DNA from: Thermodesulfovibrio sp. 3907-1M
GTDB lineage: Bacteria > Nitrospirota > Thermodesulfovibrionia > Thermodesulfovibrionales > Thermodesulfovibrionaceae
DNA: 64,000 nucleotides
NCBI RefSeq assembly: GCF_040450955.1
Contig: NZ_CP144373.1
Span: 372,001-436,000 of the forward strand
Reading direction: 5' to 3'
Part shown: positions 15,211-52,037 of the stretch, one piece after another
Position numbering within the stretch: position 1 is the stretch's first letter
How the letters are laid out: the number at the start of each line of letters is the position of its first letter
Translations under genes and position numbers: made by a program
The notes under the pieces: generated by a model
Told to the model about the DNA's origin: nothing
Databases searched by the model: none
The model's input: only the letters and a program-made list of their open reading frames with translations

Positions 15211-16619
15211 TGAAAAAGCTCCATCTGGCTTACTTTCCTGGATTCAAACTCAATGGGGTATTTGCAGTTAAAACATGCCATGCAGTAAAGCTCTGAATTG
15301 GGAATAATCTTTTTCAGCCCTTCAAGACTCAAATAACCGAGAGAGTCTGCGGTAATGTATTTTCTTATTTCTTCAATTTTATGGGAGGAAGCAATTAGTT
15401 CCTGCCTTGTTGGCGTGTCAATTCCATAAAAGCATGGTCCTACAGTGGGAGGTGAGCTTATTCTCATATGAACTTCCTTTGCTCCACCAAGTTCTCTTAT
15501 CATCTTTACGATTTTTTTTGAGGTTGTTCCTCTTACAATTGAGTCATCAACTACAACAACTTTTTTACCCTGTAAAACTTCTCTTACAGGATTGAGCTTT
15601 ATTTTAACGCCGAAATGTCTGATACTCTGTTTTGGCTCTATAAATGTTCTTCCCACATAGTGATTCCTGATCAAGCCAAATTCAAAGGGAATTCCACTTT
15701 CCTCAGCATATCCAAGTGCAGCAGGAACTCCTGAGTCAGGAACTGGAATAACTATATCAGCTCTGACAGGGTTTTCTCTTGCAAGCTGTCTGCCAAGCTC
15801 TTTTCTTATAGTATTCACACAAACATGGTCAAATATATAGCTGTCAGGCCTTGCAAAGTAAATAAACTCAAATACACAGTGAGCTTTCGGAGCAGAATTA
15901 AATATCTTTAAGGATTTTACGCCATCTTCACTGATTATCAGCATCTCTCCAGGTTCAATGTCTCTTATATATGTGGCACCAATTAAATCAAAAGCGCATG
16001 TCTCTGAAGCTATTACATAGGCATCTCTAAGCTGTCCCAATGATAGTGGTCTAATTCCATAGGGGTCTCTGATAGCGATTAATTCTTTTTCATTCATCAG
16101 AAGCAGTGAAAAAGCACCTCTTACCTGTCTTACTGCATTTGCAATTCTTTCGTGCACCTCACCATCCTTTGCTCTTGCAATAAGATGCAAAATTATTTCA
16201 CTGTCCGAGGTTGTTTGAAATATTGCTCCATCTTTTTCAAGTCTGCTTTTCAATCTATCTATGTCCACGAGATTTCCATTATGAGCAATTGCAATGCTTC
16301 CAAGAGAGTATGTTGCCATGAGTGGTTGAACATTTTCTATGGTGCTTGAACCTGTTGTTGAATATCTATTATGTCCGATTGCAATGTGTCCGGGTAGATT
16401 TTTTAAAACCTTTTCGTTGAATATTTCAGCAACAAGTCCCAGGGATTTTTCAAGGTATAGTTTTGTTCCATCAGAGGAACAAATTCCAGCACCTTCCTGT
16501 CCACGATGCTGAAGAGCATAAAGTCCTAAATAGGTAAGATTGGCAGCTTCAGGATGACCGAAGATACCAAAGACTCCGCATTCTTCATGGATTTCATAAA
16601 AGAGATTGTTTTTACTCAT
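15207..16619 (-). CDS. purF: Amidophosphoribosyltransferase
   Basis: First committed step of purine synthesis, PRPP + glutamine to 5-phosphoribosylamine. The 470 aa protein has the Ntn-hydrolase glutaminase at the N-terminus. A short propeptide precedes the catalytic Cys in [10 protein letters not shown] (about residue 14). The PRPP loop [14 protein letters not shown] lies at about 348-362. C-terminal cysteines in YCMACFNC suggest the [4Fe-4S] type, as in Bacillus. No ribosome-binding site precedes the start. An extended -10 (TGTTAAAAT, minus strand) about 21 nt upstream of the ATG is a possible promoter. It is the first gene of the purF-M29-hypothetical-smpB-ssrA run. Confidence 0.97.
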
Positions 16620-32013: not shown

Positions 32014-33036
32014 TTAATAGCCTTCCTCCTTAAGCTCTTTTTCTGTGATTTTGTACATGAATGTTTTATATGTCCACGCCTGATAAAAAAGAACAATGGG
32101 AACGAAGATTATTACCACAATTGTCATCACCTTCAGAGTATAGGGGCTTGAAGACGAGTTAAATATTGTGAGACTGTATTTCGGATCAATGGCTGAGGGA
32201 ATAAGATTTGGATAAAGTCCGATGACTCCACTGAATACAACAGTTATGATAAACAAAACGGATGATATAAAAGCTTTACCTCTTTTATTTTTCATTAGAT
32301 AAAATCCTGTTGCAAGCAGACACGCCACAGCAATTGCAGGAACGACAAACCAATATGGAAGTTTAAGATAGTTATCGTAAAGATTTGTAAAGACTGCTGT
32401 TAAAATCAAAAAGAGCACTGCACATATAGCCTGCAGATACCAGAATTTTTTAGCTTTTAAAGCAGCTTTTTCTGCCAACGTATCTGGAACTCTGAGTGCT
32501 GTCCACAATCCTCCATGTACTATAAAGGTAAATAAAAACAATAAACCAACAATCAAGCCATACGGATTAAGAAGACTGAATACTGTTGCATAGTATCCAG
32601 AGTCATCAAAGGGAAGTCCCATAAATATGTTTCCAAAGGCAACACCAAAAAGCAGAGCAGGAATAAAACTTCCAGCAAATACCCAGAAATCCCAGAACTT
32701 TTTCATCTGCTCTGAAGTTGCTTTGCCTCTCAATTCAACAGCTACTCCCCTGAATATTAGTGCAAAAAGAATTATCAAAAGCGGAGTATAAAGATAGCTG
32801 AACATATAGGCATAGGTTGTAGGAAAGGCAGCAAAAGTAGCGCCACCTGCGGTAATAAGCCAAACTTCATTCCCATTCCAAACAGGACCAATTGCATGAA
32901 GCATTGCTTTTTTATCCATCTCATTTTTTGCAATGAAGGGATAGAGAACTCCAGCACCAAGATCAAATCCGTCAAGGGCAAAATAAACTGCCCATAACAG
33001 TCCCCATAAAATAAACCATATAGTTTGAAACTCCAT
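32014..33036 (-). CDS. cydB: Cytochrome bd quinol oxidase subunit II
   Basis: Structural partner of CydA in the bd oxidase. The 340 aa protein has about eight to nine membrane helices and starts WFILWGLLWAVYFALDGFDL, the conserved opening of CydB (cited partly). It shows GPVWNGNEVWLI at about 50. It follows cydA by 2 nt and precedes rrf2. In an anaerobe the complex is likely a protective O2 scavenger, matching the SOD at 62900. Confidence 0.96.
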   Translation of the reverse strand: MEFQTIWFILWGLLWAVYFALDGFDLGAGVLYPFIAKNEMDKKAMLHAIGPVWNGNEVWLITAGGATFAAFPTTYAYMFSYLYTPLLIILFALIFRGVAVELRGKATSEQMKKFWDFWVFAGSFIPALLFGVAFGNIFMGLPFDDSGYYATVFSLLNPYGLIVGLLFLFTFIVHGGLWTALRVPDTLAEKAALKAKKFWYLQAICAVLFLILTAVFTNLYDNYLKLPYWFVVPAIAVACLLATGFYLMKNKRGKAFISSVLFIITVVFSGVIGLYPNLIPSAIDPKYSLTIFNSSSSPYTLKVMTIVVIIFVPIVLFYQAWTYKTFMYKITEKELKEEGY

Positions 33037-33038
33037 AA

Positions 33039-34343
33039 CTACACCTCCTTTGGTTCAGGACCTTTTCTTGCATATTTTGCAAGAAGGTAAATATCAATTA
33101 TTCCAAGAGCACCATAAAAGAGTGTAAATCCTACTAAAGAAGCCACTACCTGAGCAGGTTCAACTGCCTTTGATACAGCATCAGCTGTTTTAAGCAATCC
33201 ATAAACAATCCAGGGCTGTCGTCCCACCTCTGCCACAATCCATCCAAGCTGTGCTGCAATATAAGGAAGAGGGATTGACCAAAGAAGTAATCTTAGAAGC
33301 GTGGTAGCATTTTCAATGGTTTTAAATTTAAGCAATGCCCATAGAGCAAGTATTATAAAGAGAAAACCCAGTCCTACCATGAGTCTGAAGCTGAGAAAAG
33401 TAATGGTTACGGGAGGTCTTTCAGAAGGTGGAAACTCTTTTAATCCCTTTATTTCTTTCTGTCCTGCAAGGATGCTTAACAGGGAAGGAATTCCGATAGC
33501 TTCAACAGCGTTTCTCTCATTCTTAGGATCTGGCACAAGAATTAGATACATTGGGGCATCATTAGTGGTTTCCCATAGAGATTCCATTGCGGCAAGCTTT
33601 GTTGGCTGAGTGCGAGATACTTCTTTTGCATGGAAGTCACCCACTGCAGCAACAAGAATTGAGCTTACAAGTGCAAAGGTTGCTCCAATTTTTAAAGCTT
33701 TTTTGAAAAATTCAGTCTCGTTTTTTCTTAAAAGATGATATGCAGAGATCCCTAAAACGAAAAATCCTGCAACAATCCAGCCAGAAAGAACTGTATGAGC
33801 AAACTTAAGTAACCCATAAGGATTTGTTACAACTGCCCAGAAATCAACCATCTCTGCCCTTCCATTCCTCAAGACATAACCAACAGGATGCTGCATCCAT
33901 CCATTGGCAATTAAAATCCAAAGAGCAGAAAGATTTGTTGCCAGTGCCACAAGCCATATGGAGAGAGCGTGCAGTTTTGGAGAGATTCTATTCCAGCCGA
34001 AAATCCACACACCAATGAATGTTGACTCAAGGAAGAATGCCAGAGTTGCTTCAATTGCCAGAGGAGAACCAAATATATCTCCCACATACCGCGAATACTC
34101 AGCCCAGTTCATTCCAAACTGAAATTCCAGCGTAATTCCTGTAACAACTCCCAGTGCAAAATTAATTAAGAAAAGCTTTCCCCAGAACTTTGCCATCCTT
34201 AAATAATCCCTATCACCTGTTGCCACATACCTGCTTTCCATGTAAGCTACAAGAATTGAAAGTCCGAGTGTAAGGGGAACAAAGATAAAATGGAAGGCTG
34301 CAGTTATGGCAAACTGTAGCCTACTTAATAATACTGTATCCAT
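33039..34343 (-). CDS. cydA: Cytochrome bd quinol oxidase subunit I
   Basis: Carries haems b558, b595 and d and reduces O2 to water with quinol. The 434 aa protein is of the short-Q-loop type. It has the N-terminal His in AITAAFHFIFVPLTLG (about 18), WNRISPKLHALSIW, KFAHTVLSGWIVAGFF and the signature GWIVAEVGRQPWIVYGLL (about 360). It is the first gene of cydA-cydB-rrf2. GGAGGGAGG precedes the start, and a strong promoter lies upstream at 34373-34401. Confidence 0.97.
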   Translation of the reverse strand: MDTVLLSRLQFAITAAFHFIFVPLTLGLSILVAYMESRYVATGDRDYLRMAKFWGKLFLINFALGVVTGITLEFQFGMNWAEYSRYVGDIFGSPLAIEATLAFFLESTFIGVWIFGWNRISPKLHALSIWLVALATNLSALWILIANGWMQHPVGYVLRNGRAEMVDFWAVVTNPYGLLKFAHTVLSGWIVAGFFVLGISAYHLLRKNETEFFKKALKIGATFALVSSILVAAVGDFHAKEVSRTQPTKLAAMESLWETTNDAPMYLILVPDPKNERNAVEAIGIPSLLSILAGQKEIKGLKEFPPSERPPVTITFLSFRLMVGLGFLFIILALWALLKFKTIENATTLLRLLLWSIPLPYIAAQLGWIVAEVGRQPWIVYGLLKTADAVSKAVEPAQVVASLVGFTLFYGALGIIDIYLLAKYARKGPEPKEV

Positions 34344-34372
34344 ACCTCCCTCCTTAAATTTATTGTTGACTA

Positions 34373-34401
34373 ATTTTATCCACTTTTAAAAATTTTGTCA
34401 A
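34373..34401 (-). promoter_or_regulatory. Sigma-70 promoter of cydAB-rrf2
   Basis: On the minus strand TTGACA, a 17-bp spacer and TAAAAT. Start site near 34366. It lies between the small membrane-protein gene and cydA, so cydA is not dependent on the Rieske operon. Confidence 0.75.
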
Positions 34402-34418
34402 GAGATATTTTTTTCATA

Positions 34419-34553
34419 TCATTCCTCCACACAAATCTGTTTTTTGGTAAGAGCAATCACTGTTTTAATCAGGACAAAACTTATAACTATGGTGGTTATG
34501 ATTGCAAAGAAATAGCTTAAAAATTCATACTTTATACCCATATGGGCTATCAT
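34419..34553 (-). CDS. 44-residue single-helix membrane protein of the b/Rieske operon
   Basis: The frame starts with an ATG overlapping the petD-like stop (ATGA) and ends at TGA 34419-34421. It has one membrane helix (FLSYFFAIITTIVISFVLI), then a basic turn TKKQ and an acidic end. Its position and size are like the one-helix subunits (PetG/L/N/M) of cytochrome b6f complexes. Sequence homology cannot be judged at this length. The stop-start coupling is the strongest sign that it is real. Confidence 0.65.
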   Translation of the reverse strand: MIAHMGIKYEFLSYFFAIITTIVISFVLIKTVIALTKKQICVEE

Positions 34554-34909
34554 GATAAGGCTTCAATTATGGTGGTTATGATAAATAGAAGTAGAAAAAT
34601 TAGTCCAATGATTGCTGTTAACATCCATCCAATTTTTTTCTCAATCCACGGAATAAAAAGGAGAAAGGCTATTAATGTAAAGGGCAACAAAACTCCACCT
34701 ATAAAAACTTGATCAGTTGAGAAAAATCTCAACAGATAAAAGAGCCAGAGATAATACCACTCAGGACGGGGTTGATAGGCTGCTGTGAAGTCAATTTCTT
34801 TTCCAATAACAGGAGGAAATAGAAAAGCCAGTATGAGAATTATTTCAAAAGTAGTGATTGCAAAAAACAAAACTTCAATAAGATAATCTGGGTAAAACTT
34901 CTTTTTCAT
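34550..34909 (-). CDS. Cytochrome b C-terminal half (subunit IV-like)
   Basis: 119 aa with three membrane helices and the Qo-site motif PEWY in PRPEWYYLWLFYLLR (about 48-62). This corresponds to subunit IV (PetD) of b6f-type complexes, where cytochrome b is split into two genes. It starts MKKKFYPDYLIEV, overlapping the upstream cytochrome b gene by 4 bp. It would form the quinol-oxidising site together with the Rieske protein encoded two genes upstream. Confidence 0.92.
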   Translation of the reverse strand: MKKKFYPDYLIEVLFFAITTFEIILILAFLFPPVIGKEIDFTAAYQPRPEWYYLWLFYLLRFFSTDQVFIGGVLLPFTLIAFLLFIPWIEKKIGWMLTAIIGLIFLLLFIITTIIEALS

Positions 34910-35550
34910 AGGGGTTTTGATATGCCAAGCTTTTTAATCATATGAAAATGTGCCCATAAAAGAATAACTATAATCAAGGGAAACCACAGCACATGGAAAC
35001 TGTAAAATCTTGAGAGAGTAATTCCAGTTACCTCATATCCGCCTCTTACGATCAGTAAAAGAGTTTCGCCCAATATCGGTATGCTTCCGATAATATTTGT
35101 TCCAACAACAGTTGCCCAGTAAGCTTTTTGATCCCATGGAAGAAGATATCCAGTAAAGCCCTCAAACATCACAATTACGAATATAGTAACTCCAACAATC
35201 CAGTTTAATTCCCGTGGAGGTCTGTAACTTCTGGTAATAAAAACTCTTATTGAGTGAATTATAAGGCTTACAATCAGTAGATTGGCAGACCATTTGTGAA
35301 TTCCTCGCATTAGTTTTCCAAGATATACTTCTTCATGAATTTTCTGAATGCTTAAATAAGCTTCTTTTTCAGAAGGAGTATAATAAAATGACAGAAAAAG
35401 CCCGGAGAGCAGACATATTAAAAATGCGGTAAAAGCAATTCCACCAAAACAATAGAAGTAATTTATGCCCTCTGGAATGTCTCTTTCAAAAATTCCTCTA
35501 TGAGCGGATTTTAATCTGAATCTGTCAAGAAACCAATCAATGAGTTTCAT
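34906..35550 (-). CDS. Cytochrome b N-terminal half (b6-like)
   Basis: 214 aa, four membrane helices, binding two b haems. Haem ligands are the His pairs in GIHKWSANLLIVSLIIH (13 residues between) and SFHVLWFPLIIVILLWAH (14 residues between). The 13/14 spacing is that of the b6f type. GYLLPWDQKAYWA is the conserved Qo loop. It is coupled by 4-bp overlaps to the Rieske gene upstream and the subunit IV-like gene downstream. No cytochrome c1 or f gene lies nearby, so the electron acceptor is not evident. Confidence 0.95.
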   Translation of the reverse strand: MKLIDWFLDRFRLKSAHRGIFERDIPEGINYFYCFGGIAFTAFLICLLSGLFLSFYYTPSEKEAYLSIQKIHEEVYLGKLMRGIHKWSANLLIVSLIIHSIRVFITRSYRPPRELNWIVGVTIFVIVMFEGFTGYLLPWDQKAYWATVVGTNIIGSIPILGETLLLIVRGGYEVTGITLSRFYSFHVLWFPLIIVILLWAHFHMIKKLGISKPL

Positions 35551-36020
35551 AGTTTTATCCCTATCAAAATTCTGCCATTTTCCATCTTAACGGGGAGTCT
35601 GTGAAGAGCCTCTTTAGGCGGACCATCAATTACTTTCCCATCTGTATCATATCTGCCACCATGGCATGGACATATGAATTCATTTACGGTTCTGTCAAAG
35701 TTTACAAAACAGCCAAGGTGGGTGCATACAGGTGAAAGAGCAATTATTGAATTTTTTTGATTTACAAGAAATATTTTCATGGATTTTTTTTCTTCAATGG
35801 CTATATCAACTTTTTTTACACCTTCCTTGGGAATTTTATCCTCTGAGACTTCAAAAAATTTATACGGTTTGTTTTTAGGTTTTTTAGGTACTAAAAAGAT
35901 TAAACCAGTAATTACAAATAAAAATCCTGCAGTTAAAAATAGAAAATTAATTATCTTTTTTAAAAAAAGTCTTCTTTTCTGGTTATGCAAATTATTATCA
36001 TTTAAACTAATTTTTTTCAT
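35547..36020 (-). CDS. Rieske [2Fe-2S] protein
   Basis: 157 aa. It has a basic N-terminus, a membrane anchor (about 20-44, FLFLTAGFLFVITGLIFLV) and a Rieske domain with CTHLGC and CPCHGGRYDTDG clusters. GGPPKEAL is replaced by DGPPKEALHRLP, the usual proline loop. GGGGGT lies just ahead of the ATG. It is the first gene of the Rieske-cytochrome b-subunit IV-small protein operon and is divergent from the psr operon, so the two respiratory modules share one control region. Confidence 0.94.
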   Translation of the reverse strand: MKKISLNDNNLHNQKRRLFLKKIINFLFLTAGFLFVITGLIFLVPKKPKNKPYKFFEVSEDKIPKEGVKKVDIAIEEKKSMKIFLVNQKNSIIALSPVCTHLGCFVNFDRTVNEFICPCHGGRYDTDGKVIDGPPKEALHRLPVKMENGRILIGIKL

Positions 36021-36113: not shown

Positions 36114-38306
36114 ATGACCATTACCCGAAGAGATTTTCTCAAAATTGCAGCTGCAACAGGTGGAGTAGCTGTAGCTGGAACTTCAGTTGTAACCTCTGTT
36201 TTAGGTCTTGGTAAAAAGCCTGTCTCATTACCTCAATATGTTCCCACTACATGCGAGATGTGTTTCTGGCGGTGTGGCGTAATTGCTAAGGTTGTGGATG
36301 GTAAAGTAGTAAAACTTGATGGAAACCCTCTTCATCCAAACTCTCGGGGGAAATTATGTGCAAGAGGTCATGGTGGAATAGGGCTCCTTTATGATCCAGA
36401 CAGATTAAAAACACCTCTTATCAACACAGGCAAAAGAGGAGAGGCAAAGTTTAAAAAGGTTTCATGGGATGAAGCACTTGGATTTGTGGCAGATAAAATG
36501 CAGAAAATTAAAGAACAGTATGGAGCAGAATCAATAGCCTTACTTACACATGGAACAGTATCAACTTACTTTATGCATCTTCTTCAGGCTTTTGGCTCTC
36601 CTAATTTTGCAATGCCTTCCTTTGCACTTTGCAGAGGTGCTCGTGGTGTAGCCTTTGAAGTTACCTTTGGAGAAGATGTTGGCAATCCTGAAAGACTTGA
36701 TCTAAAGAACAGCAAAGTAGTTGTCTTGATAGGTAGCCATCTTGGTGAGAACGCTCATAACTCCCAGTGTCAGGAATTTGCAGAAGCAGTTGGTAGAGGT
36801 GCTACTGTTATAGTTGTTGATCCGAGATTTTCAACAGCAGCTGGTAAGGCAAAATACTGGTTACCAATAAAGCCTGGTACTGATCTGGCTCTTTTACTTT
36901 CATGGATAAACTTAATAATTCAGGAAGAACTTTATGATAAAGAGTATGTAGCAAAATACACTGTAGGTTTTAATGAAGTTGCCAGTTCAGTAAAACAGTA
37001 TACGCCAGAATGGGCTGAAAAGGAAACGGAGATTCCAACCAGTTTAATTGTTGAAACAGCAAGAATAATTGGGAAAAATAAACCTCATGTTTTGATACAT
37101 CCTGGAAGACACACTGCTTGGTATTCAGACAACGTTCAGCGTCAGCGTGCTGTTGCCATATTAACAGCACTTCTTGGAGCTTATGGAAGACCTGGTGGAA
37201 TTTATCTCACTCCAAAGAAAAAGCTTGAGCCGGTGTTTCTCTCAGAGAATAATTATCCAGAGCCGCAAAAGCCTGCAATAAACAAGGGCAATTATCCTTT
37301 TGCAGGTGAAGAAGGAGTAACCCACGAAATTGTTAGAGCTACCTTGACAGAACAACCATATCCAATCAAAGCATGGTTTATAACAGGAACTAACATAATG
37401 AAAGCAATGCCAGATCAAAGACAGACACTGCAAGCTGTTCAAAAACTTGATCTTCTTGTGGCTGTTGACATGATGCCCTATGATGGAGTGATGCTTGCTG
37501 ATGTAGTGTTACCTGAATGCACCTATCTTGAGCGACATGATGATTTATTCACTGTTAAGGAAAGAGCCTTTGGAGTTTCAATTCGCCAGCCTGTCATTCA
37601 GCCCATGTATGATACCAAGCCAGGATGGTGGATAGCTAAAGAACTCGGTAAAAAGCTCGATCTTGAGAATTACTTTCCGTGGAATACCTTTGAGGATTTT
37701 TTAAAAATCAAGGCTCAAGCCTGGGGAATTGATTATTCTGAACTTGCTAAAAAGGGATATATTGATTTTCCAGAGAGTGCTAAACCCTACATCTTACCGG
37801 GTGAGGACTTTAAATTTAAAACACCCTCAGGCAAGATAGAGCTTTACAGTAAAGAGCTTAAGGAAAATGGTTTTGACCCTGTCCCGAGATACACAAAGCA
37901 TGAACAGCCACCAGAAGGATGGTTCAGACTTATCTATGGAAGGGCACCAGTTCATACTTTTTCAAGGACAACCAATAATCCTTCTTTATGGGAACTCATG
38001 GAAGAAAATGTTGCATGGATTAATGCAAAGGTGGCAAAAAGGCTTGGAGTTAAACAGGGTGACTACATTGTTCTTGTAAATCAGGACGGAGTAAAGAGTA
38101 ATAAAGTAAGAGCAAAAGTAACAGAACGAATAAGACCAGACTGTATCTATCTTGTCCATGGATTTGGTTCAACATCTAAACTTTTAAGGAAAGCATACCT
38201 CAGAGGAGCTGATGATCAGCAGTTAATTACAAGGTATGCCATAGACCAGATTTCAGGAAGTGTTGGGATGAGGGTTAATTTTGTGAAGATTACAAAGGAG
38301 GTTTAG
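36114..38306 (+). CDS. Molybdopterin oxidoreductase, polysulfide/thiosulfate reductase type, catalytic subunit
   Basis: Periplasmic Mo/W-bisPGD enzyme of the DMSO-reductase family. 730 aa. A Tat signal (TRRDFLKIAAATGG) is followed by a [4Fe-4S] site (TTCEMCFWRCGV...GKLCARG, about 45-85). A Cys in SFALCRGARG (about 178) is in the place of the Mo ligand of PsrA/PhsA. C-terminal dinucleotide-binding segments (YGRAPVHTFSRTTNN) are intact. It is followed by B and C subunits in one operon. Polysulfide, thiosulfate or tetrathionate as substrate cannot be separated by sequence reading alone. Confidence 0.92.
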   Translation: MTITRRDFLKIAAATGGVAVAGTSVVTSVLGLGKKPVSLPQYVPTTCEMCFWRCGVIAKVVDGKVVKLDGNPLHPNSRGKLCARGHGGIGLLYDPDRLKTPLINTGKRGEAKFKKVSWDEALGFVADKMQKIKEQYGAESIALLTHGTVSTYFMHLLQAFGSPNFAMPSFALCRGARGVAFEVTFGEDVGNPERLDLKNSKVVVLIGSHLGENAHNSQCQEFAEAVGRGATVIVVDPRFSTAAGKAKYWLPIKPGTDLALLLSWINLIIQEELYDKEYVAKYTVGFNEVASSVKQYTPEWAEKETEIPTSLIVETARIIGKNKPHVLIHPGRHTAWYSDNVQRQRAVAILTALLGAYGRPGGIYLTPKKKLEPVFLSENNYPEPQKPAINKGNYPFAGEEGVTHEIVRATLTEQPYPIKAWFITGTNIMKAMPDQRQTLQAVQKLDLLVAVDMMPYDGVMLADVVLPECTYLERHDDLFTVKERAFGVSIRQPVIQPMYDTKPGWWIAKELGKKLDLENYFPWNTFEDFLKIKAQAWGIDYSELAKKGYIDFPESAKPYILPGEDFKFKTPSGKIELYSKELKENGFDPVPRYTKHEQPPEGWFRLIYGRAPVHTFSRTTNNPSLWELMEENVAWINAKVAKRLGVKQGDYIVLVNQDGVKSNKVRAKVTERIRPDCIYLVHGFGSTSKLLRKAYLRGADDQQLITRYAIDQISGSVGMRVNFVKITKEV

Positions 38307-38308
38307 AC

Positions 38309-38866
38309 ATGCCAAAATATGTAATGGTTATAGATGTGGAAAGATGTATTGGATGTATGGCATGTGTGATTGCCTGTAAAAAGGAAAACGGTGTTGCAGA
38401 TGGATATTTTAGAACACGGGTGGTTGAAGAAGTGAGAGGCGAATTCCCGAATTTAAGAATGGAACTGAGGTCAGAGCTTTGCAATCACTGCGAAAATGCA
38501 CCATGCATAGATGCCTGCCCTACAAGAGCATCCCACAGAGCAAAGGATGGAACAGTTCAGATTGACAAAAAAAAATGCATTGGCTGCAAGGCATGCATTT
38601 TAGCCTGTCCCTATGATGCAAGATACTCAACTCCTGAAGGAGTGGCTGATAAATGTACGTTTTGTGAGCACAGACTTAAAGAAGGCAGAAAACCAGCCTG
38701 TGTTGAAACCTGCCTTGGAAAATCAAGAATCTTTGGAGACCTTGATGATCCAAATAGTGAGGTATCACAGCTTTTAAAAAAACATGAAGCTACTGTCAGG
38801 CTTGAATTTGCTGGCACATCACCAAGGGTGTTTTACATTAATAAAAAATTTGCAGGAGGTTTATGA
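38309..38866 (+). CDS. Four-cluster ferredoxin-like electron-transfer subunit (PsrB type)
   Basis: 185 aa. It carries four [4Fe-4S] motifs: CIGCMACVIACKKENG, CNHCENAPCIDACP, CIGCKACILACPYDAR and CTFCEHRL...PACVETC. This is the standard B subunit passing electrons from the membrane subunit to the molybdoenzyme. It lacks its own signal peptide and is presumably exported with the Tat-signalled A subunit. It is 2 nt from the A gene and overlaps the C gene by 4 bp. Confidence 0.95.
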   Translation: MPKYVMVIDVERCIGCMACVIACKKENGVADGYFRTRVVEEVRGEFPNLRMELRSELCNHCENAPCIDACPTRASHRAKDGTVQIDKKKCIGCKACILACPYDARYSTPEGVADKCTFCEHRLKEGRKPACVETCLGKSRIFGDLDDPNSEVSQLLKKHEATVRLEFAGTSPRVFYINKKFAGGL

Positions 38867-39852
38867 TGATAGAGTTGAGCATTACAGGAACAAACGCAAT
38901 AACATTTCCCCATCTGGAGGTCTGGGACTGGAGAATTGTTTTTTATCTTTTTCTTGGAGGTCTTTCTGCTGGAATACTTGTAATGTGTTCAATTGCAAAC
39001 CTCAGAATTCCAAAGCAACCTGTGGAAGAGCTTGCGCAATGCGTTAGAGCTCCTTTAATTGCATTTATTGTGCTTGCAGTTGGTGCTTTATTCATAATTC
39101 TTGACCTTGGTTCACCCTTGCATCTTGTATGGGGCTATTTAACCTTTCAGCCTCTCTCTTTAATGTCCTGGGGTACATGGGGAGTACCAGCTGTGCTTTT
39201 TGCCAATGCTCTTTATATACTGGCTGTGATTCCTAAAGAGCAAAGACATAGACTTAAACTTCCATTACTTATTAAGCTTTCTGAAAAACTTGCTCTTAGA
39301 ATGAGACCCATAGCAAAATTAAATTTTGCTTTAGGAATATTTCTTGGAATATACACCGGTGTGCTTTTAAGCTCCTTTGCAGCAATTCCTTTATGGAATA
39401 ATGCAACACTGCCGATTCTGTTTCTCGTATCAGCTCTCTCTTCTGGTGCAGCAATGGTTGTTATAATAGCTAAAAAGGCTGAGATAAAATTTTTATTTAC
39501 GAAGATTGATATATGGTTAATAGTTGCAGAACTTGTTGTGATAGCTTTGTTTTTCTATGGACTTTATACTTCCACTGCACCTTATAAAAAAGCTATTGCG
39601 CCATTTTTCTCTCTTACAAGTGAACACTTTATCTTTACACTTGCCTTGATCGCCATATTTTTACTGCTTCCTTTAGCATTAAGAATTAAACTTGGTGAGT
39701 TAAAGGAGTTTGAAGATGGTTTGCATGCAGAGTTTACAAAAGCTCAGATTTTCAGGATGAACTTTGCAGCTATTCTCGTGATCGCTGGGACATTGATTTT
39801 AAGGGCAGCAATAGTATATGCTGGACAGTTAACAAAACTGTCAGCTTATTGA
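38863..39852 (+). CDS. NrfD/PsrC-type quinone-interacting membrane subunit
   Basis: 329 aa with about eight to nine membrane helices. It starts with a conserved stretch reading EVWDWRIVFYLFLGGLSAG (about 19-37), as in PsrC/NrfD. It lacks haem ligands and would exchange electrons with menaquinone. Coupled to the B gene by an ATGATG overlap. It completes the psrABC set. Confidence 0.93.
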   Translation: MMIELSITGTNAITFPHLEVWDWRIVFYLFLGGLSAGILVMCSIANLRIPKQPVEELAQCVRAPLIAFIVLAVGALFIILDLGSPLHLVWGYLTFQPLSLMSWGTWGVPAVLFANALYILAVIPKEQRHRLKLPLLIKLSEKLALRMRPIAKLNFALGIFLGIYTGVLLSSFAAIPLWNNATLPILFLVSALSSGAAMVVIIAKKAEIKFLFTKIDIWLIVAELVVIALFFYGLYTSTAPYKKAIAPFFSLTSEHFIFTLALIAIFLLLPLALRIKLGELKEFEDGLHAEFTKAQIFRMNFAAILVIAGTLILRAAIVYAGQLTKLSAY

Positions 39853-40268: not shown

Positions 40269-40493
40269 ATGCAAACAAAGGCGAGAGGTTTAATTGTTAT
40301 TGACACAGAAAGATGTAAAGGATGCAAATACTGTGTATTAACATGCCCTAAGGGATGTATTGAACTTTCCTCGGAGTTTAATTCCTCTGGTTTTTTCCCT
40401 GCAAGATTTTCCAATCCTGACAGCTGCACAGGATGTGCGATGTGTGCAGTTGTATGCCCTGAAATTGCCATAGAGGTATTCGTAGAAGATTGA
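40269..40493 (+). CDS. 2x[4Fe-4S] ferredoxin, KorD-like
   Basis: 74 aa with two cluster motifs, CKGCKYCVLTCPKG and CTGCAMCAVVCPE, and a short N-terminal strand GLIVIDTERC. The pattern is that of the delta subunit of 2-oxoacid:ferredoxin oxidoreductases. The alpha and beta subunits lie 20 kb away (59723-62267), so it may be their missing delta chain or a partner of the HdrA-like protein that follows 47 nt later. Confidence 0.85.
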   Translation: MQTKARGLIVIDTERCKGCKYCVLTCPKGCIELSSEFNSSGFFPARFSNPDSCTGCAMCAVVCPEIAIEVFVED

Positions 40494-40539: not shown

Positions 40540-42366
40540 GTGTTGAAAATCGGGGTTATTTTTTGTGCCTGTGCTGGGCAGATAACTGAAAAGATTGATT
40601 TTGAAAAACTTAAAGCTTTAATAACTGACAAAGTTGCATGGTTTGAAAAATTTGAATTAGCCTGCTCTGAGGAGACACAAAAAGAAATTATAGATTTACT
40701 CATCTCAAGAAAACCTGACGGATTAATTATTCTTGCCTGCTCGCCCAAAAATAAAGAGTCTGTATTTCAGAGTATTGCTCAAAAAGCAGGGATTAATCCA
40801 TATATGATCAATATTGTTAATATCAGAGAACAGGTTGTATGGGTTACTAAAGATAAACAGGAAGCACTGAAAAAAATATATGCACTTTTCAAGGGAGCAT
40901 TGGAAAGACTGAAAAAACAAAAACCTCTTTTTGAAAAAGAATTTCCAGTTTCAGATAATATAATGGTTGTTGGAGGAGGTATAGCAGGACTCAAGGCAGC
41001 ACTCGCTCTTTCAAGGGCTGGTCGGAAAGTTTATCTTATTGAAAGGGAAAACTCACTTGGTGGTAAAATTACCAGATATGAAAAACTCTTTCCAGACCTT
41101 TCCTGCGGACCCTGCGTGGTACATCCAATGATTGAGGAGGTTTTAAGTTCTGATATAGAACTGAGATTAAATTCGGAATTAAAAGAATTAAAAGGATTTT
41201 TCGGAAGCCTTTTTGCAAAGGTTTTATCAAAGCCAGTTTATGTTAATCCTGGAAAATGTATTGGTTGCTCTCAATGTGAAGAAGTCTGTCCAGTAAATGC
41301 TATCAGAGTAGAATCGATGAAACTTCCAGCAGTGGCAAGAATAAATCCTGAGCTGTGTCTTGCTCTTAAAGGAAAGGAGTGTAATTTATGCATAAAGGAG
41401 TGTCCTGTGCCAGATGCAATAAATTTCAATGAATCAGAGAATGAAGAAACTATAAAAGTCAATGCCATACTCTGGGCAACAGGATTTGAGCTTATTGATT
41501 GTAAAGCCTTTGCTGAGCTTGGATATGGAAAATTTAAAGATGTCTATAATGCGCTGGAATTTGAAGAAATTTTAAACTCTGAGGGACCTGCCAAAGGAGA
41601 AATAATAACCAGTTCAGGAAGTGTTCCCCATAGGATTGCAATTATTCATTGTGTTGGAAGCCTTGATGAAGATTACTATCCCTACTGCAGTAAAATATGC
41701 TGTCAGTATGCTTTTAAGTTTAACAGAGTAATCAGACAGATTCAGCCAGATGTTGAAATAATTCACTTTGTTAAGGAAATAGTGCTTCCAGGTAAAAAGG
41801 CATACAAACTTTATTCACAGGCAATTAAAGACCCTCTGACAAAAGTTTTAAGATATGAAAACTTAAAGGAGTTAAAGATTGAAAGAGAAGATTCATTGAT
41901 TATTTCTTTTAAAAACGATAAAATTCCCTGTGACATTGTTGTTCTATGTCCTGCAATTGTGTCAGATAAAAAAATAGAGGAAGTCTCAGGAGTATTTTTT
42001 ACAGGCTCTGTCAAAGAGCCTATGACAATACAGGAAACAATAACTGATGTAATGGCTCAGGTTGGAGAACTTCTCAGCTCATTTAAGGAGAAAATAATAA
42101 GGCAACCATTTATAGCAAAAATAGACTATAATAAATGCAGCCGTTGTGGCATATGTTTATCTCAATGTCCCTATAGAGCAATTGAGAGTGTAATGGGAAA
42201 ACCAGAGATTATTGAAGTTCTTTGCGAAGGATGCGGGATATGCGTGGCTTCATGTCCTTCAAAGGCAATTGATATTGATGGCTACACTGATGAGGAAATT
42301 TTATCTGAGATAGAGGGAATAGTTGATGCAATTGAGGAGGTAAGTTATGGCAGTGATTTTACTTGA
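40540..42366 (+). CDS. HdrA-like FAD/iron-sulfur electron-transfer protein
   Basis: 608 aa soluble flavoprotein. It has an N-terminal Cys pair (FCACAGQ), a FAD-binding fold VVGGGIAGLKAAL (about 143), a Cys pair of the HdrA type in SCGPCVVHPMIEE, and the HdrA signature CVGSLDEDYYPYCSKICC. Ferredoxin motifs are CIGCSQCEEVCP, CNLCIKECP, CSRCGICLSQCP and CEGCGICVASCP. In relatives HdrA bifurcates or transfers electrons between ferredoxin and disulfide or sulfur carriers. The start is GTG at 40540 or TTG at 40543, with AGAGGG just upstream. The end overlaps tusA by 20 bp, so a sulfur-carrier link is likely. Confidence 0.9.
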   Translation: MLKIGVIFCACAGQITEKIDFEKLKALITDKVAWFEKFELACSEETQKEIIDLLISRKPDGLIILACSPKNKESVFQSIAQKAGINPYMINIVNIREQVVWVTKDKQEALKKIYALFKGALERLKKQKPLFEKEFPVSDNIMVVGGGIAGLKAALALSRAGRKVYLIERENSLGGKITRYEKLFPDLSCGPCVVHPMIEEVLSSDIELRLNSELKELKGFFGSLFAKVLSKPVYVNPGKCIGCSQCEEVCPVNAIRVESMKLPAVARINPELCLALKGKECNLCIKECPVPDAINFNESENEETIKVNAILWATGFELIDCKAFAELGYGKFKDVYNALEFEEILNSEGPAKGEIITSSGSVPHRIAIIHCVGSLDEDYYPYCSKICCQYAFKFNRVIRQIQPDVEIIHFVKEIVLPGKKAYKLYSQAIKDPLTKVLRYENLKELKIEREDSLIISFKNDKIPCDIVVLCPAIVSDKKIEEVSGVFFTGSVKEPMTIQETITDVMAQVGELLSSFKEKIIRQPFIAKIDYNKCSRCGICLSQCPYRAIESVMGKPEIIEVLCEGCGICVASCPSKAIDIDGYTDEEILSEIEGIVDAIEEVSYGSDFT

Positions 42367-49206: not shown

Positions 49207-49541
49207 TTTGTCCTGAAGATAAACCCAGAGGTTATAATATATCAATAAATCTTTTTGAAAAGCATGATAAAGTCCTTGCCCAGAAAGAGACACTTTCAAT
49301 TTTTTTCAATAATGAAAAATTTTCAGATTCATTCAGGGAATTTTTTAATCCTCAAAAATTTGACTCCATAGAGGTTGTAACCTATGTTTCTTCTGCAAGA
49401 TTCTTTTTTGAAACTTTAAAGGACTTTAAAAAAATTCTTTTGATTCTTGGAATTGAGGATGATACAATCCTTACAAATTTTTCTCCTGAGTTGCAGGAAA
49501 AATTTTTAAAGGAACCTGATGAGGAACTGGTATCAACTTAG
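49207..49541 (+). pseudogene. Fragment of a PLD-like / helicase-associated protein
   Basis: An open frame with no start codon runs from the tRNA 3' end to TAG 49539-49541 (about 111 codons). It reads CPEDKPRGYNISINLFEKH..., then FREFFNPQKFDSIEVVTYVSS and LKDFKKILLILGIED. This resembles the N-terminal part of phospholipase-D-like proteins often fused to helicases; the call is from memory and needs a search. The frame is cut at the front by the tRNA and at the back by the ATPase gene, whose ATG lies inside it at 49519. It is probably non-functional. Confidence 0.55.
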
Positions 49542-52037
49542 CATAAGAGATATTTATCAAAAACTTAACACTAATGAAAAAGGCTTAACCTCTGAAGAAG
49601 TCCGGAAAAGGCTTGTTAAATACGGTTATAACAGGCTTCAGGAAGAAGACAGAGTCAAAAAATTTAAGATTTTCCTTCATCAGTTTACAAGCCCTCTTAT
49701 TTATATTCTTCTAATCGCCGGAACTATCTCCATAGTTCTTAAAGAATACATTGATGCAGCAGTAATCTTTGCAGTGGTCATACTTAATGCAATTATTGGT
49801 TATTTTCAGGAATACAAGGCTGAGCAGAGTGTTAGAGCGCTGAAGAAAATGCTCGTTCCAAAGGCAAAGGTGCTGAGGGATGCAGTGGAAAGGGAAATCA
49901 GCAGTGAAGAGCTTGTTCCTGGAGATATTGTTCTTCTTTACTCTGGAATTCGTGTTCCTGCGGACATAAGACTTATTCACACTGTTGAACTTAAGATTGA
50001 TGAATCCATACTTACTGGAGAATCTCTTCCTGTGGAAAAACATCATCACACAATAAAAGAGGAAAATCTCACCTATGGAGACCAGAAAAATATGGCATTC
50101 ATGGGAACCGTTGTGGTAAGCGGAAGAGCAAAGGGTGTGGTTGTTGAAACAGGAATGAATACAGTATTTGGTAAGATTGCAAAGCACATAAAAGAAGCAG
50201 AGGCAGTAAGAGCACCACTTCAGGATAAGATAACAAAATTTGCAAATGCCATTGGAATTCTTGTGCTTTCAGCATCTGTAATGCTTTTCATTGCTGGATT
50301 GATTGTGGGTGAGTCAATTAAAGAGATGTTTATGACAGCGGTTGCTGCTGCAGTGGCTGCCATTCCTGAAGGCTTACCCGTTGTTGTAACAATAGTTCTT
50401 GCAGTTGGCGTGGCAAGAATGGCAAGGCACAATGCGATTGTAAGAAAGCTTCACGCAGTGGAAACACTTGGTAGCACCACAGTTATTGGCTCAGACAAGA
50501 CAGGAACACTGACAAAGAATGAGATGACAGTAAAAGTTATTTACGATGGAAAAGAAGTTTATGAAGTAGAAGGAAGTGGATACGAGCCAACTGGCAGGAT
50601 ACTTCATGAAGGCTTGTCCATAAATGCAGCTGAAAGAAAACATCTCATGGATTTATTAAGAATCGGCTTACTTTGCAATGAATCCTCTGTTTATCTGGAT
50701 AATGGAGATTACAGGATTGAGGGAGATCCAACAGAGGCTGCTTTAATTGTTTCAGCTATGAAAGCAGGACTTAATCCTGAGGAAGAAAAGGAAAAATACA
50801 GACAGTTTGCCATAATTCCCTTTGAATCTGAAAGAGGCTATATGGCAACCTTAAACATTCATAAAGGTAAAAGATTCATATTTGTCAAGGGAGCACCTGA
50901 AAAAGTTATTGATATGTGTGTGAAGGATTCCTATGGAAATGAAATAGATAGAGAAAAGGTTCTTCATCTTGCCAGTGAGTTTGCAAAGAAAGGGCTCAGA
51001 GTTCTTGCATTTGCTTACAGAGAAGTGAGAGAGGAAATTGAAGAAATAAGTTGCAGGGAATTGGAAAAGTGTGATGCTGTCTCAGGTTTAGTTTTTGCTG
51101 GATTACAGGGAATGATTGACCCTCCAAGACCTGAAGCAATTGAGGCTATAAAGGGATGTAAAAAGGCAGGTATCAGGGTAGTAATGATTACAGGAGATCA
51201 TGCAGTTACTGCGAAGGCAATCGGAGAGATGCTTGGAATTTCAGACAGCAAGTCAAAGGTTATTACTGGAAAGGAACTTGAAAATATGAGCGATGAAGAG
51301 CTTTTTCATAAAGTAAAGGAAGTCTCAGTTTATGCAAGGGTATCCCCTGAACATAAATTAAGAATTGTTGAGCAGTTCAAGCGTCACGGAGAGATTGTGG
51401 CGGTAACAGGTGATGGTGTAAATGATGCACCGGCATTGAAGTCTGCCCATATAGGTATTGCCATGGGCAAAAGCGGAACAGATGTAGCAAAGGAAGCCTC
51501 GTCCCCATTCCCTATGTGCCAGCACAGATTTTATGGATAAATCTTGTAACAAATGGACTTCAGGATGTAGCTCTTGCCTTTGAGCCAGGAGAAAAGGGAG
51601 TTCTTGAAAGACCTCCAAGGGACCCAAAAGAGGGTATAATGTCAAAGCTTTTGATTGAAAGGACAATAATTGTGGGAGTACTAATATCAGCGGGAATAGT
51701 TTTTAACTTTATGAATGCACTGGAAAACGGTGCATCTATTGAGAAAGCCCGCACAGTGGCAGTTACCACAATGGTTTTCTTCCAGTTTTTTCAAGCATGG
51801 AACAGTCGCTCTGAGTATGAATCCATATTTAAAATCCCTCTGCTCAGCAATCCATTCCTTTTCTTCAGTCTAATTGCATCCTTTCTTGCTCAACTTGCTT
51901 TTATATATCTTCCAGCATTTCAGTGGATTTTCAGAACACAGCCAATCTCAATGGCTGACTGGCAGAATATTCTTCTCGTCTCTCTTTCAGTCATAGTGGT
52001 TGTTGAAATTGATAAGTGGTTTAGAAGGAAAAGATGA
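49519..52037 (+). pseudogene. P-type cation-transporting ATPase with an internal deletion
   Basis: P2-type pump (Ca2+ or similar). Most motifs are intact: TGESLPVEKH, PEGLPVVVTIVLAVG (helix M4), SDKTGTLTKNEM (phosphorylated Asp), KGAPEK, ITGDHAVTAKAIG and VTGDGVNDAPALKSA. At about 51497-51501 the frame jumps from DVAKEAS to LVPIPYVPAQILWINLVTNG in another frame. The segment between them in family members, about 50-60 residues covering the hinge, M5 and the start of M6, is missing. The first frame ends at 51540 and the rest runs to 52037. Loss of M5 removes cation-site residues, so the pump should be dead. It continues by ATGA overlap into the next gene. Confidence 0.85.

Follow-up and report, generated by a model that had tools for sequence, protein, structure and literature searches.

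We consider it probable that, in Thermodesulfovibrio sp. 3907-1M, an octaheme cytochrome c is the partner of a b6-type Rieske/cytochrome b complex, that the 44-aa open reading frame (ORF) closing the row of complex genes is the relic of a transporter gene, and that the adjoining cydAB genes are independent of them. The complex is encoded in a 64,000-nucleotide stretch of DNA (hereafter the window). The window comes from a 1.94-Mb genome in a single contig, most closely related to Thermodesulfovibrio. We found no naming of a Rieske complex of Thermodesulfovibrio in the literature searched, and neither a Rieske protein nor bc1 or b6f is mentioned in the genome reconstruction that was published for Thermodesulfovibrio sp. 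N1.

Four ORFs follow each other on the minus strand with a 4-bp overlap at every junction, the last of which is an ATGA joint, just as the initial annotation had described. The first encodes a Rieske [2Fe-2S] subunit of 157 aa with an N-terminal anchor and the boxes CTHLGC and CPCHGGRYD (35547..36020; Pfam PF00355), the second a b6-type cytochrome b of 214 aa with four helices (34906..35550; Pfam Cytochrome_B, PF00033, 4e-52) and the third a subunit IV-like protein of 119 aa with three helices and a PEWY motif (34550..34909; Pfam Cytochrom_B_C, PF00032, 2e-5). The fourth is the 44-aa ORF. The genome contains a single Rieske gene and a single b6 gene. In the b6 protein, His85, His99, His186 and His201 (bis-His hemes) and Cys34 (the site of covalent heme cn) are invariant over 46 aligned sequences; the PEWY motif of subunit IV is invariant over 34, and the cluster-ligand Cys and His of the Rieske protein are conserved in 45/45 aligned relatives. 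The closest relatives of b6 among solved structures are cytochromes b6 (best match E 3e-58), and the Rieske subunit comes closest to the Rieske proteins of b6f and to those of Kuenenia (9rk4/9rk3). The best NCBIfam match of b6 is ExtP (245 bits, below the 290-bit cut-off). A split b6/IV pair with PEWY, the heme ligands and the Rieske boxes, all features of a b6-type Rieske/cytochrome b complex, are thus present, and judged by sequence the three genes are predicted to encode such a complex, menaquinol-oxidising and made from three genes, in an anaerobe. The b6f-like architecture first proposed for this locus therefore stands as regards the split b6/IV and the Rieske subunit, but not as regards small subunits, for which the only candidate is the transporter relic.

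The lack of a cytochrome c1/f gene, first noticed in the neighbourhood of the complex, extends to the whole genome. The Cytochrom_C1 model (PF02167) had zero matches over the 1.94 Mb, and cytochrome f had no convincing match anywhere in the genome; the two best hits (16.6 and 16.5 bits vs a cut-off of 30.4) share a single open frame of 1372 codons and appear fortuitous. With no convincing profile match, a c1/f gene encoded elsewhere in the genome was rejected. Membership of the bc1 complexes was also rejected, since cytochrome c1 is missing and cytochrome b is split instead of being a fused protein of 7-8 helices, as was a b6f complex sensu stricto, since neither cytochrome f nor the one-helix subunits PetG/L/M/N are found.

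Most probably, an octaheme cytochrome c of about 633 aa, membrane-anchored and with eight CxxCH motifs, stands in for c1/f; its gene lies outside the window, 59 kb from the Rieske operon (G000:C1:466319-468208). In four further Nitrospirota loci, an N-terminally anchored protein of 640-662 aa that carries eight CxxCH motifs is encoded beside the complex. One of these (L010) has the order octaheme, Rieske, b6 and subunit IV, the first two joints being 4-bp overlaps and the third depending on the start codon of subunit IV; in the other three (L011, L013 and L020), the octaheme gene is directly 3' of b6. In most congeners the octaheme gene comes just past subunit IV or the transporter gene (48-78% identity), and in eight of them it is at most about 6 kb from the Rieske operon. 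The octaheme cytochrome of the genome studied here (68% identity in this comparison) is unlinked to the Rieske operon. The eight CxxCH motifs are invariant over 30 octaheme sequences.

Co-occurrence was assessed in 61 genomes of the order, 36 with this type of b6 and 25 without b6. A close octaheme cytochrome was present in 35/36 genomes with b6 and in 0/25 without it (Fisher 3e-16, uncorrected for phylogeny), and the b6-bearing exception, G037, carries an octaheme that is less closely related (44%). Joint presence or absence varies within three families only (f1, f5 and f7), and in f1, 3/4 genomes without both b6 and octaheme are drafts of 63-68% completeness. In most other families, the octaheme gene is on another contig than b6. 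From this co-occurrence and linkage we infer that the octaheme cytochrome would receive electrons from the Rieske centre.

In the near-complete congener G013 (L126, G013:C20:1-5000), an intact SLAC1 gene stands between a decayed PsrA gene and a decayed octaheme gene, and Rieske, b6 and subunit IV are missing: the whole electron-transfer set has been lost jointly.

Among family models, the octaheme cytochrome matched only the short cytochrome c7/c3 ones, and its profile, run against PDB sequences, found only a short NrfH-like stretch (E 0.0017). Its AlphaFold2 model (mean pLDDT 62.7) had no Foldseek match at E <= 0.001 and reached a best VIA-align Z of 4.2, to unrelated receptors. One draft genome has its octaheme gene broken across two frames (L147, G008:C10:8812-10708), either by a sequencing error or by a recent frameshift. 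ORFs near the octaheme gene of another locus (L145:3120-6762 and 16279-16566) carry recurring CHSERSE / RNDKKKMECHPRND-like peptides, which suggests a family of short interspersed DNA repeats.

The genome is rich in other c-type cytochromes, so that the acceptor may be a different one. Electrons might pass from the Rieske centre to soluble mono- or multiheme cytochromes, with the octaheme acting as a downstream carrier and not as the direct Rieske partner. The many CxxCH proteins of the genome are compatible with such a route, as is the usual lack of linkage of the octaheme gene outside the genus, but the near-perfect co-occurrence of octaheme and b6 and the operon with 4-bp overlaps in L010 argue for a direct partnership, and we regard soluble acceptors as rather unlikely.

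With the octaheme cytochrome as partner, the complex would, by homology, run a Q-cycle. Oxidation of menaquinol at the PEWY/Rieske site would send its two electrons along separate routes: one would reach the octaheme cytochrome by way of the cluster in the Rieske head, and the second would cross both b hemes and the covalent heme cn on its way to the inner quinone site. The octaheme cytochrome may then deliver electrons to periplasmic or extracellular acceptors. The second Rieske box reads CPCHGG rather than CPCHGS. Loss of that serine makes the potential about 130 mV lower in yeast (literature discussed in PMC12954380), and a lowered potential would be in keeping with menaquinone. Members of the genus Thermodesulfovibrio use sulfate and thiosulfate; sulfite, Fe(III) or nitrate are used by some of them (PMC5165239).

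A Psr-type enzyme encoded divergently to the Rieske gene had been put forward as a candidate acceptor in the initial annotation. Its genes, all on the plus strand, encode a PsrA/PhsA-like molybdopterin subunit with a TAT signal (36114..38306), a PsrB-like FeS subunit with four clusters (38309..38866) and a PsrC/NrfD-type membrane subunit (38863..39852; PF03916). The nearest model of PsrA is PhsA (573 bits vs a 694-bit cut-off). The divergent arrangement proved general in the genus, where PsrABC and the Rieske gene are paired in 12/12 loci with the complex, and inside the genus the two may plausibly be linked in regulation or metabolism. Across the order, however, only 13/36 b6-bearing genomes have a close PsrA, vs 35/36 for the octaheme cytochrome. 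This count weakens the proposal, and we rejected Psr as a general Rieske acceptor. PsrABC is followed in the window by genes for a 74-aa two-cluster ferredoxin (40269-40493) and an HdrA-like protein of 608 aa (40540-42366), also present in two other loci (L116 and L117). Further along, a P-type ATPase-like ORF of 673 aa (49519-51540) has an abrupt frame end after GTDVAKEASS and is possibly a frameshifted gene.

The 44-aa ORF (34419..34553, minus strand) has one hydrophobic stretch, a predicted helix, and no Pfam or NCBIfam match. We compared the region 3' of subunit IV across 11 congeners. Three of them (L005, L007 and L008) have a SLAC1/TehA gene of 315-319 aa (PF03595, E 2e-53 to 4e-58) directly after subunit IV on the same strand. 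Residues 9-44 of the ORF align gap-free with the last 36 residues of this transporter, at 47-58% identity, and the C-terminal end is near-identical, with QICVEE in both the ORF and the L007 transporter. A profile of the three transporters gave the ORF 29.6 bits (E 3e-11), and 2000 shuffles of its residues reached a maximum of 9.3 bits (best E 4.5e-5). Among 446 helix-bearing ORFs tested with this profile, no unrelated one beat the shuffles, the exceptions being transporters and a transporter fragment in locus L115. At the DNA level, the ORF is a two-piece chimera. Its 5' portion agrees in 30/34 bases (88%) with the end of subunit IV and the adjoining spacer in the closest relative, whereas its 3' portion agrees in 38/51 bases (75%) with the 3' end of the transporter gene in L007. 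The first ~8 codons correspond to former intergenic spacer and the last 36 to the C-terminal helix of the transporter; between the two pieces, a segment of ~0.9 kb, as estimated from gene lengths and comprising both transporter and spacer sequence, is gone.

We conclude that the 44-aa ORF, as identified by homology, represents the 3' end, still in frame, of a mostly deleted SLAC1/TehA-type transporter gene, a deletion scar butted against subunit IV, and no subunit of the complex. It matches the C-terminal helix of the SLAC1/TehA family (TDT, PF03595) and has its syntenic position, although Pfam alone misses the 44-aa piece; lacking about 280 codons, it is no functional transporter. No other SLAC1 gene was found in the genome. 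A short 3' remnant of the transporter follows subunit IV in one congener (L002), another (G014) has the SLAC1 gene ~18 kb away, and G013 keeps it intact though the Rieske operon is lost. Transporter and complex can therefore occur independently, which argues against the transporter as a subunit too. The SLAC1 gene of a further genome (2,003,803 bp), which we take to be T. yellowstonii-like, persists as an N-terminal and a C-terminal fragment after subunit IV (L115:10770-11206), a case of ongoing decay.

The initial annotation had read the 44-aa ORF as a small subunit, had proposed looking for it in related genomes and had named its absence from orthologous operons as evidence against that reading. 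No homologous small ORF was present in any of the orthologous loci with readable sequence 3' of subunit IV (0/35), and the small subunit is not borne out. The ORF is missing even in the closest relative (94% b6 identity), which has TAATAG vs TGATAG here, so that one base is all that separates the two genomes in having or lacking the ATGA joint. No Shine-Dalgarno sequence was found upstream of its ATG. The frame is still open, with no stop acquired, and translation by coupling is possible in this one genome. An analogue of PetG/L/M/N and a split-off helix H of cytochrome b were both rejected, given the homology to the SLAC1 C-terminus and the absence in orthologues.

A genuine one-helix, b6f-like subunit (a PetG/L/M/N analogue), in a complex whose Rieske centre reduces the neighbouring Psr enzyme, would account for the ATGA overlap with subunit IV, the predicted helix, the divergent PsrABC genes in all 12 genus loci and the decay of PsrA in G013, where b6 was lost. 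We consider it very unlikely, since the ORF is missing from 35/35 orthologous loci and is homologous to the last helix of a transporter, and since no more than 13/36 b6-bearing genomes of the order have a close PsrA. Exaptation of that last helix in this species only, as a new small subunit of the b6-type complex arising de novo through the ATGA joint, would be consistent with an open frame that has acquired no stop yet, with translational coupling and with one complete helix. It appears highly improbable to us, because the ORF is missing in the closest relative, has no ribosome binding site and derives from a gene that is merely decaying in other congeners. We therefore retain the reading of the 44-aa ORF as a transporter relic.

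On the same strand, cydA starts 75 bp past the 44-aa ORF. It encodes cytochrome bd subunit I (33039..34343), lies outside the b6-type complex and is followed by cydB for subunit II (32014..33036, minus strand). It has its own sigma70-type promoter, TTGACA-17-TAAAAT (34373..34401, minus strand; 11/12 consensus matches). The identical type of promoter and leader precedes cydA in 4/4 congeners, at other genomic sites, and no ORF like the 44-aa one was found upstream of cydA in those four. Among the genomes inspected, cydA adjoins the b6 operon in this one only. We conclude that cydAB is an independent transcription unit. A block formed by the ~60-bp leader, the cydA promoter (window 34343-34404) and cydAB appears to be mobile, as it occupies unrelated sites in the four congeners. 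One-helix subunits are known in bd oxidases, and the 44-aa ORF lies just upstream of cydA on the same strand, but with a cydA promoter of its own that is conserved in four congeners without such an ORF, an adjacency unique to this genome among those inspected, and homology to SLAC1, we rejected a CydX/CydS-like small subunit of the bd oxidase as extremely improbable.

These results remove a false lead, a small b6f subunit presumed to occur in a sulfate reducer, and highlight that short ATGA-chained ORFs can be gene relics. They also put forward a concrete candidate, open to testing, for the missing c-type protein that partners b6-type complexes in Thermodesulfovibrio and related Nitrospirota.

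Compared with known systems, the complex shares with photosynthetic cytochrome b6f the split b6/IV, the four His ligands, the heme cn Cys, PEWY and the Rieske subunit, but it is without cytochrome f and without PetG/L/M/N, to which the one-helix ORF is unrelated. The Ext cluster of Geobacter comprises the Rieske protein ExtO, the cytochrome b ExtP, ExtQ and multiheme cytochromes (PMC5877670). It resembles our system in combining the b6-like ExtP with a Rieske protein and multiheme cytochromes; however, the heme counts of the Ext cytochromes are different, the octaheme cytochrome here scores <= 29 bits to ExtN/ExtO, and no ExtI porin cluster was seen beside the loci inspected.

Nitrospina gracilis has a b6-type Rieske operon with an octaheme protein as its only cytochrome c, and the same operon structure occurs in Kuenenia (PMC3578206; PMC12954380). 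With N. gracilis and Kuenenia stuttgartiensis, our system shares a Rieske subunit, a split b6/IV and, most likely, a multiheme cytochrome c (octaheme or hexaheme in those two) in the place of c1/f. The Kuenenia complexes have NAD(P) oxidoreductase subunits and a five-helix subunit IV, whereas the subunit IV described here is a three-helix protein and no NAD(P) module adjoins the genes. In the Nitrospirota studied here, the octaheme is usually encoded elsewhere, and the likeness is one of heme count and genetic tie rather than of compared octaheme sequences. That tie to Rieske, b6 and subunit IV is of the Nitrospina/Kuenenia kind, the octaheme cytochrome being present but unlinked in Thermodesulfovibrio sp. 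3907-1M itself. A b6-type complex with an octaheme cytochrome in place of c1/f is thus already known from Nitrospina and Kuenenia, and by analogy the complex described here would work like these.
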